A DNA stretch of 40,091 bases from Acinetobacter sp. Lineage in GTDB: Bacteria; Pseudomonadota; Gammaproteobacteria; Pseudomonadales; Moraxellaceae. Under the pieces are notes generated by a model. That model made no database searches. It was not told where the DNA came from and was given only the letters and a program-made list of their open reading frames with translations. The number at the start of each line of letters is the position of its first letter. The first letter of the stretch is position 1. Below, in pieces: positions 113-5,207 of this stretch. The position numbers were made by a program, and so were the translations under genes. The stretch is from contig SSHE01000021.1 in assembly GCA_008017315.1 (NCBI GenBank), positions 1 to 40,091 of the forward strand. Direction: 5' to 3'.

Positions 113-2221
113 ATGATTCAAAATAAACAAGGATATAACTGCCCTCAAAATATATTATTCCAACCTATAAAAAATAGTTGGGGAATGTATTGGTCAATTT
201 CACCTTATACCGATGAAGATTCTTGGTATTCATATCTTGAGAATGAAAATGATGAATATTATTGGTATTTATATTTTGAAAATGGAAATATCGCTTATAA
301 TAATAATCTTGGCAATGCTTATGTTCGATCTGTTCGTGGTCAAGCAAAAATCACTCTACCACAACACGCACAGACCATACAAAAACCTGTACAAGCAATA
401 GCAAAACCGCAACCATCAACTATACCAACAAAACAACCTATTCAGCCACAGATAGTACAAAAACCTGTACAGCCTGCTACCCCAACTGCAAAACCGCCCC
501 AACAACCAACAATACCATTTAGTGATGAACTCGACCAAGGCGTATGGACTGACCCAAATACTGGGTTAATGTGGGCGAGAATTAGTATCGGGCAAGAATG
601 GAAAAATGGTAAATGTGTAAGTAGTGCGAAAAGATTAGATTGGTATGATGCACAAAAAGAATGTCAAAACTTTAAATTAGCAGGTTTTAGTGACTGGCGA
701 TTACCAACGATTGATGAATTAAAAACACTAAAACTAAATCGGGTAGCTGGTTATAATTGCCCTAATATGATGCTATTTCAACCTAAAAAACGTGATTGGG
801 GAATGTATTGGTCAATTTCACCTTATACTGATGAATATTCTTGGTATTTATATTTTGAGAATGGAAATATCGCTTATAATGGCAATCGTGGCAATGCTTA
901 TGTTCGAGCAGTTCGTGGCAAAGCGAAAAATACCCAAACCCAGCAAAAACCAACTGTACAAAAAACCGTACAATATATCACTAAACCACAACCATCAACG
1001 ACACCAATAAAGCAACCTATTCAGCCACAGACAGCACAAAAACCTGTACAGTCTGTTACACCAACTGCAAAACCGACCCAACAACCAACAACACCGCCTA
1101 TTAACAAACTTGACCAAGGCGTATGGACTGACCCAAATACTGGTTTAATGTGGGCGAGAATTAGTATCGGGCAACAATGGATAAATGGACAGTGTGTAGG
1201 TGATGCAAAAGAATTAAATTGGGAAGATGCAGAAAAAGAATGTCAAAACTTTCAATTAGCAGGATTTAATGATTGGCAACTACCGACTATTGACGAATTA
1301 AACACATTAAAATTAAAAAACACATCAGGTACATTATTCCCCCCTAAATCAGATAATTGGGGACAGTATTGGTCAGCATCACCTTATAAATTTGATAATA
1401 ATTTTACTTGGGGAACAGATTTTCATACTGGCTATTCATACGGTTACGATGAAAATGATACCTATCATGTTCGTGTAGTTCGTGGTGGCACAGCAAAAAT
1501 TTCCAGACCTAAAAAAACTATACAGCCTGTTACATCAACGGCAAAACCGCCCCAACAACAAACAACACCATCTAGTAATGAACTCGATAAAGGCGTATGG
1601 ACTGACCCAAATACTGGCTTAATGTGGGCGAGAATCAGCATCGGGCAACAATGGGAAAATGGAAAGTGTATAAGTGATGCTAGAAAATTAGACTGGGAAG
1701 ATGCGAAAAAAGAATGTCAAAATTATAAATTAGCTAACTTTAATGATTGGCGATTACCCACGATTGATGAATTAACAACATTAATGATTCAAGGTAAATC
1801 AGGATATAACTGCCCTAAAAATATATTATTCCAACCTAACAAAGACAGTTTTGGATATTATTGGTCTGAATCATCTAATAAATATGCTTATGCACTATAT
1901 ATAGGCTTTGATGGTGGTTTTTTATATGACAGCAAAAAGAACAGCAATAGCCATGTTCGGGCAGTTCGTGGAAATGCAAAAATAACCTTACCCCAACAAA
2001 AACCTGCTACTCAGCAGAATGTAATTCAAAGCAATACTCCATCTAAAAATAAATCAACATCCTATACAATTCATATAATATCAGATTTTATTACAATTTT
2101 ATTTAAAAATTTCTTTCATTATATATGGTTACTTCTAAAAATAATAGCTATTATTATATGGATTGGTTTTGTATTAGCTGTTATATTAACTGTTATAATA
2201 TCTATATTTAAGCATTTTTAG
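113..2221 (+). CDS. DUF1566 (Lcl C-terminal-like) repeat protein with C-terminal membrane segment; 5' end lost
   Basis: This 702-residue ORF contains one partial and three full DUF1566-like units. The full units begin near residues 140, 333 and 491 with LDxGVWTDPNTGLMWARISI and contain the family signatures DWRLPTIDEL, YWSxSPY and HVRxVRG. Linkers rich in Pro, Gln, Thr and Lys separate them. The last ~40 residues are strongly hydrophobic (IIIWIGFVLAVILTVIISIF) and look like a C-terminal membrane anchor. DUF1566 domains are common in bacterial surface or secreted proteins, but their biochemical role is not known to me. The ATG at 113 lies inside a repeat and has no ribosome site, so it is not the original start; the gene is interrupted by TAA at 59-61. 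Codon use is very AT-rich compared with the metabolic genes, suggesting accessory origin. Whether any product is made is unknown. Confidence 0.75.
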   Translation: MIQNKQGYNCPQNILFQPIKNSWGMYWSISPYTDEDSWYSYLENENDEYYWYLYFENGNIAYNNNLGNAYVRSVRGQAKITLPQHAQTIQKPVQAIAKPQPSTIPTKQPIQPQIVQKPVQPATPTAKPPQQPTIPFSDELDQGVWTDPNTGLMWARISIGQEWKNGKCVSSAKRLDWYDAQKECQNFKLAGFSDWRLPTIDELKTLKLNRVAGYNCPNMMLFQPKKRDWGMYWSISPYTDEYSWYLYFENGNIAYNGNRGNAYVRAVRGKAKNTQTQQKPTVQKTVQYITKPQPSTTPIKQPIQPQTAQKPVQSVTPTAKPTQQPTTPPINKLDQGVWTDPNTGLMWARISIGQQWINGQCVGDAKELNWEDAEKECQNFQLAGFNDWQLPTIDELNTLKLKNTSGTLFPPKSDNWGQYWSASPYKFDNNFTWGTDFHTGYSYGYDENDTYHVRVVRGGTAKISRPKKTIQPVTSTAKPPQQQTTPSSNELDKGVWTDPNTGLMWARISIGQQWENGKCISDARKLDWEDAKKECQNYKLANFNDWRLPTIDELTTLMIQGKSGYNCPKNILFQPNKDSFGYYWSESSNKYAYALYIGFDGGFLYDSKKNSNSHVRAVRGNAKITLPQQKPATQQNVIQSNTPSKNKSTSYTIHIISDFITILFKNFFHYIWLLLKIIAIIIWIGFVLAVILTVIISIFKHF
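531..1990 (+). repeat. Three long coding tandem repeats (DUF1566 units)
   Basis: Near-identical DNA begins around 531, 1109 and 1583 (GGCGTATGGACTGACCCAAA in all three) and continues through the DWRLPTIDEL-coding segment. Spacing is about 578 and 474 bp; the difference lies mostly in the low-complexity linker. A fourth unit, partial at its left end, occupies 2-360. High DNA identity between units makes recombination and copy-number change likely. Confidence 0.85.
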
Positions 2222-2234
2222 AATTTAATGTTTG

Positions 2235-2266
2235 AAAGATTCAGCCTAAAATTTGAATCTTTTTAT
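2235..2266 (+). terminator. Hairpin terminator after the DUF1566 gene; left copy of a flanking direct repeat
   Basis: AAAGATTCA (2235-2243) pairs perfectly with TGAATCTTT (2254-2262) and is followed by T-rich sequence. It lies 14 bp after the DUF1566 stop and also touches the end of the convergent PIN-toxin gene, so it could serve both. About 29 of its 32 bases recur at 2944-2975. Confidence 0.65.
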
Positions 2267-2658
2267 TTAGGTTCAATACAAACAGGAAAAATATGTTCAC
2301 GCTCACCACGTTTTAACAATCGCTTATCAAAACTATAAAATCCTGTACATTCATTCGATAAGGCAACATGCAAAGCATCTGCTATATCCATTCCTTGCTT
2401 TGCCCAAATTAAAGCCTGATACCATGTAGATGAAAACTGAAAATATAAATTCTGTAACATCAATAAATTTTCAAATGCTTCTATAATGTCTTCTTTTAAA
2501 ATACCATTTGAACGTAAGACCCAAGCCAACTCTAAACCTACGGTTATGGGAATAAAACATTGTTCAGAATTTTCAATCAGTTGTGTTGCTTTTTCAGCTT
2601 GAATTGGGTCATCAGCCAACAAATAACGGGCTAAAATATTTGTATCTAATGCAATCAT
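2263..2658 (-). CDS. PIN-domain (VapC-like) ribonuclease toxin
   Basis: A 131-residue protein of the usual VapC length. It opens with the PIN motif MIALDTNILARYL (first catalytic Asp at residue 5), has the conserved Glu in GLELAWVL, the central acidic pair in GMDIADALHVAL, and the closing YSFDKRLLK. These are the residues expected for a metal-dependent RNase. Known family members cleave tRNA or rRNA and are held inactive by the partner antitoxin; the target here cannot be told. The start ATG overlaps the stop of the upstream gene by one base (TAATG), typical of translational coupling in a toxin-antitoxin operon. All catalytic positions appear intact, so the toxin should be active if expressed. 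Confidence 0.85.
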   Translation of the reverse strand: MIALDTNILARYLLADDPIQAEKATQLIENSEQCFIPITVGLELAWVLRSNGILKEDIIEAFENLLMLQNLYFQFSSTWYQALIWAKQGMDIADALHVALSNECTGFYSFDKRLLKRGEREHIFPVCIEPK

Positions 2659-2867
2659 TATCGGCTCAACATATCATCTTGTAAAATGACTTGTGAAAAC
2701 TCATCTTGAGGAATATCTTTTTTTCGATTAGCTAACATGCCCTTACAATCACGCACCGTTAAAGAATTTTTCTTAATTTCATTAATAAAATCCATCACTT
2801 GATATAATTTTTTTTCATCAAGTTGATGTAATTTTTCAATAATACTACGCTCAAGAATGGCATTCAT
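2658..2867 (-). CDS. Antitoxin partner of the PIN toxin
   Basis: The ORF track gives 84 residues from 2912, but the better start is ATG at 2867, preceded by GGGGAGCTGAG as ribosome site, giving 69 residues beginning MNAILERSI. The protein is small and charged. The segment KLHQLDEKKLYQVMDFINEI resembles the short helical core of DUF2281-type antitoxins, and the acidic C-terminal tail (DEFSQVILQDDM) would suit toxin binding. I do not see a clear DNA-binding fold such as an AbrB or ribbon-helix-helix motif. Position directly upstream of, and one base overlapping, the PIN toxin is the strongest evidence for the role. Family assignment is tentative. Confidence 0.7.
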   Translation of the reverse strand: MNAILERSIIEKLHQLDEKKLYQVMDFINEIKKNSLTVRDCKGMLANRKKDIPQDEFSQVILQDDMLSR

Positions 2868-2943
2868 CTCAGCTCCCCAATTTCGATACATTCTCCAAGA
2901 ATCATAACACAAACTAGAGCATAGTATTTACACCCACCATATA

Positions 2944-2975
2944 AAAGATTCAGCCTAAAAATTGAAGCTTTTTAC
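2944..2975. repeat. Right copy of the ~32-bp hairpin repeat flanking the toxin-antitoxin pair
   Basis: The segment starting AAAGATTCAGCCTAAAA matches 2235-2266 at about 29 of 32 positions in the same orientation. Here one stem position is mismatched. It lies upstream of the antitoxin promoter region rather than after a gene, so as a terminator it has no obvious gene to serve. Confidence 0.75.
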
Positions 2976-3027: not shown

Positions 3028-3062
3028 AAAAAAAACAGACACCTTAAATATGTCTGTTTTTT
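3028..3062 (-). terminator. Rho-independent terminator of the porin gene
   Basis: AAAAAACAGAC (3030-3040) pairs perfectly with GTCTGTTTTTT (3052-3062). On the minus strand it follows the porin stop by 14 bases and ends in a T run; the symmetric A/T tails make it potentially bidirectional. Confidence 0.85.
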
Positions 3063-3076
3063 CACCTAAAAAAAGA

Positions 3077-4303
3077 TTAAAAACTATAGCGTGCCATTGC
3101 CCCTACCCGATTATCTTGACCTTTTACACCGACAAAAGTTTCACGTTCACCATGCACATATTCCACGCCAAACATTAAAGGCTTGCTCGGTGCATACATT
3201 AGATTGACCCAACCTTGTTGCAGTTCTTTATTGGCAGTCGGGTTTAAGGTTGCATAACGGTTGCCATCATCTGCCTGCATCACGCCATAGCCTACCGTAC
3301 TGCGTAACTGTGGATTGATCTGATAAGTCGCCCCAACGGATGCCACATCAAATACATTATTTTCCAAATCATTGCCATCTACACTAAAAGCGGTATTGGC
3401 AAACATGGTCAGATTCTGATTACCCTCAACGTGCATATAATCCGCCGACATTTTAAATTCAGGGCTGAATTTATAACTCGCCCCAATACCTGCACCCCAA
3501 CCTGTGGTTTTTACATCCTCTTTTGGTGAGGCAGCACGGTTTTGCTCCACAAAGACCCGTCCTGAAATCAAGCCCTGATTTTGGGCAAAATTGTGATTTA
3601 CTTTTGCAGTCAAAGTCGGCAGACGATTATCCGAGTTTTTTTGCTCAAGACCGACCAAAACTTGTGTATCTGGGGTGACTTTTTCACTATAACGTAGCAT
3701 CGCACGGCGATCATAAGCAGAGCCAAGATTGAGATTAAAGTCCAACATCTCTGGAATGACTTCAAGATTGGAAAACGTCGATGTGGTTTGACCCATCAAC
3801 CAGTGATCATACGTTAAATAGCCATGACGCAAACGTAATTTAGGATTGACCGTACCATCATCACGAAAATCGACTTCGACTTTTCCACCAATATCCGCAC
3901 CTGCAACTGGGGTTTTAAAATCCCCCCCTATACGGCTACTATTAACCGTACTATAAAGCTTGTCGTTATGTTTGCCATCTAATGCAACAGCATTGATACG
4001 GTTAAAAATACTTTCTCCACCTTCTGCCTGATAGCTGACATCGGCACGGACAAAACCATACAGTTTGGCTTCTGCACCACCTGCAGTGGTCAATTTCAAT
4101 TCTTTTGCAGCAGTATTTGCTGGTGTAACTGTCACCTGTACGGCAGATTGTTGCTGAATCAACGCACGTAATTCTTGCACTTCTGCACGTAGTTGTTGCA
4201 CTTCTGCCATTTGTTCGGCGTTGGCATACGAGGTAAAAAATGTTGCTATTGCAAGGGTTAGAGCTGTTTTAACCCATCCTTTTTTCATGAGAGAACTACT
4301 CAT
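3077..4303 (-). CDS. DcaP-like outer membrane porin
   Basis: 408 residues. The N-terminus (MKKGWVKTALTLAIATFFTSYANA) is a clear Sec signal peptide with cleavage after ANA. It is followed by a short heptad-rich coiled coil (QMAEVQQLRAEVQELRALIQQQ), then alternating beta-strand sequence ending in ARYSF, whose terminal Phe is the usual outer-membrane insertion signal. This layout matches the DcaP family of Acinetobacter, trimeric porins linked to uptake of dicarboxylic acids and other small anions; substrate here is inferred only from the family. The start at 4303 has AGGAG seven bases upstream; an alternative in-frame Met five codons later also fits a signal peptide. It is a single-gene unit with its own terminator. 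Confidence 0.85.
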   Translation of the reverse strand: MSSSLMKKGWVKTALTLAIATFFTSYANAEQMAEVQQLRAEVQELRALIQQQSAVQVTVTPANTAAKELKLTTAGGAEAKLYGFVRADVSYQAEGGESIFNRINAVALDGKHNDKLYSTVNSSRIGGDFKTPVAGADIGGKVEVDFRDDGTVNPKLRLRHGYLTYDHWLMGQTTSTFSNLEVIPEMLDFNLNLGSAYDRRAMLRYSEKVTPDTQVLVGLEQKNSDNRLPTLTAKVNHNFAQNQGLISGRVFVEQNRAASPKEDVKTTGWGAGIGASYKFSPEFKMSADYMHVEGNQNLTMFANTAFSVDGNDLENNVFDVASVGATYQINPQLRSTVGYGVMQADDGNRYATLNPTANKELQQGWVNLMYAPSKPLMFGVEYVHGERETFVGVKGQDNRVGAMARYSF

Positions 4304-4502
4304 GTTAATCTCCTAAATTTTTTATGGTGATGATGTATCCATGTCATACACTTTTGCATTGTGACAAATTTATTAACAACTTTTAGCTATGCTTTAGTCT
4401 AATCCTGCCACAAATTCCACGTCATTTTTGCCAAACCCACTCGTTCAAAGTGTGTTTTCCGTTTATAGTGAGCGGAAAATTCACATCCCTATTGGTGTTT
4501 TT

Positions 4503-5207
4503 ATGAATATGGAACACGTTCAAATCGTAGATCATGCGATTACCTCCCGCCATTCTGTGCGTGCTTTTTTAAATCAACCTGTTGAACAGCAACTCATTAA
4601 GGATATTCTGAGCGTTGCTAGTCGTGCACCGTCGGGAACCAATACACAGCCTTGGAAAGTCTATGTGGTCACAGGGCAAAAACGTGATGAAATGGTCAAA
4701 CGTGTGTGTGATGCCCAAATCGCTGTCGCACAAAATCCACAACTTGCCGCACAATATCAAGAAACGTTTGCCTACTATCCAAAAAATTGGGTTTCACCAT
4801 TTATTGACCGTCGTCGTGAGAATGGTTGGGGTTTATATGGTTTGCTCGGTATTCAAAAGGGCGATAAAGAAAAAATGGCCTTGCAGCATTTGCGTAATTT
4901 TCAGCTATTTGATGCACCTGTAGGTTTATTCTTTACCACCAATAAAGCTATGGGAATTGGTTCAAAAATGGATATTTCCATGATGCTTCAAAACGTCATG
5001 ATTGCAGCTAAGGCACGTGGTTTGGATACTTGTCCACAAGCCGCATGGAATCATTTTCATCCGATTGTATTGGATATCGTCGGTGCACTCGATGATGAGG
5101 AATTGGTATGCGGCATAGCTCTCGGTTATGCCGATCCTGAACATATTATCAATACGTTTATTACCCCACGTGTACCTGTAGAAGAGTTTGCGGTGTTTTT
5201 GGGTTAA
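4503..5207 (+). CDS. Nitroreductase-family flavoprotein
   Basis: The ORF track begins at a TTG (4428), but the family fold begins shortly after the ATG at 4503 (MNMEHVQIVDHAITSRHSVRAF), so I use that start (234 residues; 4509 is also possible). SRHSVRAF and RAPSGTNTQPWKVYVV are the FMN-phosphate and flavin-contact motifs of the nitroreductase family, and the C-terminal GIALGYADPE is also characteristic. Such enzymes use FMN and NAD(P)H to reduce nitroaromatics, quinones or enones in the cytoplasm; the physiological substrate cannot be read from sequence. It stands alone between the oppositely oriented porin and a convergent hypothetical gene. No strong ribosome site is visible. Confidence 0.85.
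   Translation: MNMEHVQIVDHAITSRHSVRAFLNQPVEQQLIKDILSVASRAPSGTNTQPWKVYVVTGQKRDEMVKRVCDAQIAVAQNPQLAAQYQETFAYYPKNWVSPFIDRRRENGWGLYGLLGIQKGDKEKMALQHLRNFQLFDAPVGLFFTTNKAMGIGSKMDISMMLQNVMIAAKARGLDTCPQAAWNHFHPIVLDIVGALDDEELVCGIALGYADPEHIINTFITPRVPVEEFAVFLG

Follow-up and report, generated by a model that had tools for sequence, protein, structure and literature searches.

A vapBC-like operon between two diverged copies of a rare terminator-like hairpin in an Acinetobacter genome

The closest described relatives of the locus analyzed here are the VapBC type II toxin-antitoxin systems, in which the toxin VapC is a PIN-domain protein. As in those systems, a PIN protein (131 aa) with its active-site acids is preceded by a small overlapping gene in a compact bicistron; the differences are that the antitoxin candidate has no match among the antitoxin families of Pfam and NCBIfam and that the toxin is distant from all relatives found. 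Two short direct repeats bound this bicistron and recall three other kinds of element. Like intrinsic (Rho-independent) bidirectional terminators, the left copy shows the succession A-tract, stem, loop, and T-tract between convergent genes, but its stem is AT rich with few G-C pairs, and a near-identical second copy lies 709 bp off. Like REP/BIME-like palindromes, the sequence is a short palindrome found at gene ends in more than one place; in contrast to them, it has at most two copies per genome, occurs in 2 of 176 genomes of the genus, and has no associated transposase that we could see; this genome has two copies only, where a REP-like element would have many dispersed ones. Finally, the pdif/dif modules of Acinetobacter also have toxin-antitoxin genes as typical cargo (PMC13141974) between short sites on the 28-bp scale, and single dif modules have inversely oriented sites (PMC12907356, PMC13141974), whereas the sites here are direct and lack Xer half-site sequence.

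The window, that is, the whole stretch of 40,091 nucleotides analyzed, is contig 6 of a draft genome of 2.05 Mb that is 91% complete; judged by its genes, it belongs in Acinetobacter or close to it. Its gene order runs from a DUF1566/Lcl_C gene (+) through the left repeat, the PIN toxin (-), the antitoxin candidate (-), the right repeat, and the DcaP terminator to DcaP (-), with the following features.

113..2221, + strand: gene for a DUF1566/Lcl_C multi-repeat protein (Pfam Lcl_C, E value 2.7e-70), convergent with the toxin gene and cut by the contig start
2235..2265, + strand: left repeat copy, a perfect hairpin (AAAGATTCA/TGAATCTTT, T-run TTTTTATTT), probable bidirectional terminator
2263..2658, - strand: VapC-type PIN-domain toxin, 131 aa (Pfam PIN, 39.7 bits, and alignment with homologues)
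2658..2867, - strand: probable antitoxin, 69 aa, of no recognized family; its stop overlaps the toxin start, and a GGGGAG ribosome-binding site precedes the ATG at 2867
2944..2974, + strand: right repeat copy, oriented as the left copy, a degenerate hairpin with one stem mismatch, about 76 bases upstream of the antitoxin ATG
3030..3062, no strand assigned: DcaP gene terminator, perfect 12-bp stem, distinct from the right copy by inverted-repeat search
3077..4303, - strand: DcaP outer-membrane protein gene (Pfam DcaP), transcribed towards the module

The DUF1566 gene comprises four Lcl_C repeats with near-identical stretches at offsets of 474 to 618 bp. The contig starts inside the first of these repeats, where an in-frame stop near position 60 is possibly a nonsense mutation or an assembly collapse in the repeats.

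We then analyzed the toxin-antitoxin module. The toxin scored well above the Pfam PIN cut-off (23.6 bits), and the active-site acids were in place when LDTN, LELAW, DIADALH, and SFDK were aligned with homologues. Its tail, IEPK, is similar to the homologue tails IEPR and IVPK, which indicates a natural C-terminus and not a truncation by the repeat. The closest relative within the genus has 40% identity; identity was about 45% or less to anything found, and plasmid relatives, below 60%, are mostly paired with AbrB-type antitoxins. The antitoxin candidate is the small gene upstream, which overlaps the toxin start codon and matched no Pfam or NCBIfam antitoxin family. Taken together, the module is most likely an ordinary vapBC-like operon. 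Its G+C content of 32.3%, compared to a genome mean of 41.8%, puts it among the 1.1% of 600-bp windows with the lowest values in a genome sample and supports a foreign origin, and so does the value of 34.6% for the DUF1566 gene. The AT-rich, foreign look of the module agrees with the first-pass annotation, in which the module had arrived between the copies.

A 15-base inverted repeat (2841-2855/2914-2928, 87% complementary) extends across the antitoxin start and the region upstream of it, possibly as operator half-sites or by chance. The same genome contains a second PIN-domain toxin (L050:1492-1893, contig 30 of G000) with an overlapping partner gene and 30% identity to the first. PIN homologues in two other genomes (G076 and G077) had no flanking repeat copies.

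The two ends of the module had been described as copies of a hairpin sequence of about 32 bp with 29 of 32 bases in common. Upon recomputation the identity of 2235-2266 and 2944-2975 held, and the repeat is real, but the match proper covers 31 bp (29/31 bases between 2235-2265, AAAGATTCAGCCTAAAATTTGAATCTTTTTA, and 2944-2974, AAAGATTCAGCCTAAAAATTGAAGCTTTTTA), and only the left copy forms a good hairpin. The copies are in direct orientation, the likeness ends at the 31-bp edges, and the flanks beyond do not match. Apart from repeats within the DUF1566 gene itself, this is the only direct 32-mer pair with at least 29/32 identity in the 40-kb window; 300 dinucleotide-shuffled versions of the 881-bp region gave pairs of 25/32 at most. 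A search of the whole 2.05 Mb for further copies, as the first-pass annotation had proposed, returned no third within three mismatches, and a covariance-model search added one weaker match on contig 72, an ordinary terminator whose stem differs. Among 74 terminator-like hairpins from a 264-kb genome sample, the loop GCCTAAA was unique to this hairpin, and none of the other hairpins matched the right copy better than 19/32. A common genome-wide terminator, which would have undone the proposal, can be set aside, with two copies only in the genome and no such stem or loop in the 74 hairpins. Since this comparison means that shared terminator design cannot explain their likeness, the sequences point to common descent, and the two copies are most likely homologous; with 3 differences in 32 bases, they did not arise by a recent duplication.

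The left copy was said to work as the DUF1566 terminator, and it looks like one. It has an uninterrupted stem (-9.4 kcal/mol) followed by the T-run, lies in the 41-bp gap between the convergent stops, and begins 13 bases past the end of DUF1566 (stop at 2221), while the toxin stop codon (2263-2265) falls within the T-run. A stem-loop with a T-run at a gene end, as in intrinsic terminators, was found for the left copy only. A G-C-rich stem was found for neither copy, and a consensus terminator scan (at least three G-C pairs) lists neither; by that rule, the left copy is a weak terminator. Judged from its layout, it could end both transcripts, that of DUF1566 better than that of the toxin, and because it adjoins the toxin's own stop codon, it would serve the module as well as DUF1566. 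The stem of the right copy contains an A.G mismatch, its predicted stability is -4.5 kcal/mol, and it folds no better than shuffles; most simply, it is a decayed relic. The perfect 12-bp stem of the DcaP terminator stands between DcaP and the right copy, which would give at most weak extra insulation from DcaP read-through.

We also compared the locus with its counterparts in relatives. Among DcaP loci from other genomes, gltS is directly downstream of DcaP in 24/29, and 18 of those 24 have the same nitroreductase upstream, whose gene at 4503-5207 of the window encodes a protein with 82% identity to the A. baumannii counterpart. The order nitroreductase-DcaP-gltS (here window 3077-5207) is conserved across many genomes of the genus. 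We did not find gltS in this genome, an empty search that alone carries little weight at 91% completeness. With gltS following DcaP in relatives and not found here, the whole stretch from DUF1566 to the repeat is lineage specific, and the module is absent from the relatives sampled. Since relatives have gltS at that place, the insertion may exceed the 700-bp module, perhaps including DUF1566, and insertion of the module alone is unproven. None of the sampled relatives had DUF1566 beside DcaP, an empty site with one copy, or a donor. Elsewhere in the genus, DUF1566 homologues have at most 54 to 55% identity, and their loci, where checked, contained no such hairpin.

We then looked for the hairpin in other genomes. 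Across 176 Acinetobacter genomes, near-copies were found only in G003, which has two (2 and 3 mismatches; E about 1e-8 against this window), at unrelated genes and near gene ends. One lies between convergent genes and closes a Zorya-like operon (ZorA, ZorB, ZorB by PADLOC); the other lies past glyA's own terminator, beside a truncated gene with an IS-like fragment, where the adjoining stretch has 91 to 98% identity to sequence in or near plasmid IS30-family transposase genes. No further copies occurred among 392 genomes sampled evenly across the order, and an exact pattern scan of 84,980 genomes gave two matches, in unrelated phyla. The hairpin is thus dispersed but extremely rare. This rarity disfavors a genome-wide terminator, and the near-copies at unrelated genes in another species disfavor a plain target-site duplication.

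The Zorya-like operon of G003 (L172:4973-10001, continuing into L175) encodes ZorA, a pair of ZorB paralogues, and a protein of 505 aa that matched no family; it is flanked by a C39 peptidase gene and, on the other side, by apparent potassium-transport genes. A tail in G003 that resembled a RelE/YafQ remnant by eye had no Pfam match and is not claimed. Plasmid carriage was considered and rejected: 22-base matches occurred in two dozen Acinetobacter plasmid records, but in the three records examined these matches were not hairpins and followed eptA-like genes or lay in unrelated sequence. A search for carriage by phages gave no matches of value.

We favor, at about even confidence, the proposal that an AT-rich vapBC-like operon was acquired between two homologous, diverged copies of a rare 31-bp terminator hairpin and joined there by recombination or repair. 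The operon would have been acquired horizontally, and either the module by itself or a larger segment that includes DUF1566 may have been joined at the short homology of the hairpins, presumably with no transposase or site-specific recombinase involved. The left copy would end both convergent genes, DUF1566 and the toxin, and the operon should work as an ordinary VapBC system in which the antitoxin binds and silences the PIN ribonuclease. Each end of the module has its copy: the left one holds the toxin stop codon, and the right one leaves 76 bp for a promoter. The arrangement of the repeats suggests but does not prove acquisition by recombination at hairpins. Arrival between the copies, the simplest reading in the first-pass annotation, gains from their shared ancestry, the rarity of the hairpin, and a foreign-looking module absent from relatives, and lacks an empty site with one copy. 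As for the two routes that it had offered, recombination between dispersed hairpins fits better, as near-copies stand at unrelated loci in another Acinetobacter, although these are very rare, and a fresh insertion with duplication is disfavored. Several points speak against our proposal: neither an empty site nor a donor turned up, the divergence of the copies does not fit a recent duplication, 31 bp of homology is short for RecA-dependent recombination, the consensus terminator scan passed over both copies, and a family with near-copies in just one further genome among 176 can hardly be shown to be dispersed.

A less likely but tenable explanation is a small duplication of a terminator that had nothing to do with how the module arrived: the hairpin was already on the operon, or a local copy of it was made (by slippage, gene conversion, or tandem duplication with subsequent loss), and insulation of both ends resulted. 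The left copy, next to the toxin's stop codon, can act for that gene; the right copy, with its T-rich tail on the minus strand, occupies an insulating position that separates the antitoxin from DcaP; and similar A-tract/loop/T-tract terminators are common in the genus. Against this, pairing in the stem of the right copy is no longer complete, and insulation is already provided by the strong DcaP terminator; moreover, the flanks beyond 31 bp share nothing, and thus no larger duplicated block is seen.

Operators of toxin-antitoxin operons are often palindromic, and the right copy, upstream of the antitoxin, might be an operator or leader element of the promoter, with the left copy as a second regulatory site. 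We regard this as rather improbable: the antitoxin has no recognized DNA-binding domain, the right copy is the decayed palindrome of the two, the best extended -10-like element (TGTTATGAT) is well inside the 76-bp gap and away from the repeat, and the G003 near-copies stand at gene ends. Insertion of a mobile element with a 31-bp target-site duplication would account for direct copies that flank a compact module of foreign look, yet it is improbable, since no transposase, integrase, or terminal inverted repeats lie between the copies, 31 bp is unusually long, the copies differ at 3/32 bases, and near-copies occur at unrelated sites in another species. An Xer (pdif) module, a known carrier of toxin-antitoxin genes in Acinetobacter, is scarcely credible and was rejected on half-site sequence and orientation. 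The palindrome, at 28 bp, has the length of a dif site, but the copies lack the ATAA/TTAT cores of the XerC/XerD half-sites (11-6-11 sites) in the published lists (PMC12907356, PMC13141974), are direct, and lie in a window with no excess of dif-like sites.

Returning to acquisition between diverged hairpin copies, the hairpin most likely bounds the module and perhaps helped bring it in. A bolder idea, which we hold as doubtful, is that an undescribed, very low-copy 31-bp terminator hairpin marks or serves as the join point for incoming defense and toxin-antitoxin cargo in Acinetobacter: it bounds a vapBC-like operon here, and its near-copies in G003 end a Zorya-like operon and adjoin a truncated gene with an IS-like fragment. 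With one pair and two near-copies as evidence, such a recombination seam is a lead and not a demonstration. If true, hairpin seams would explain how toxin-antitoxin and defense modules free of recombinases slot in behind genes without breaking them.
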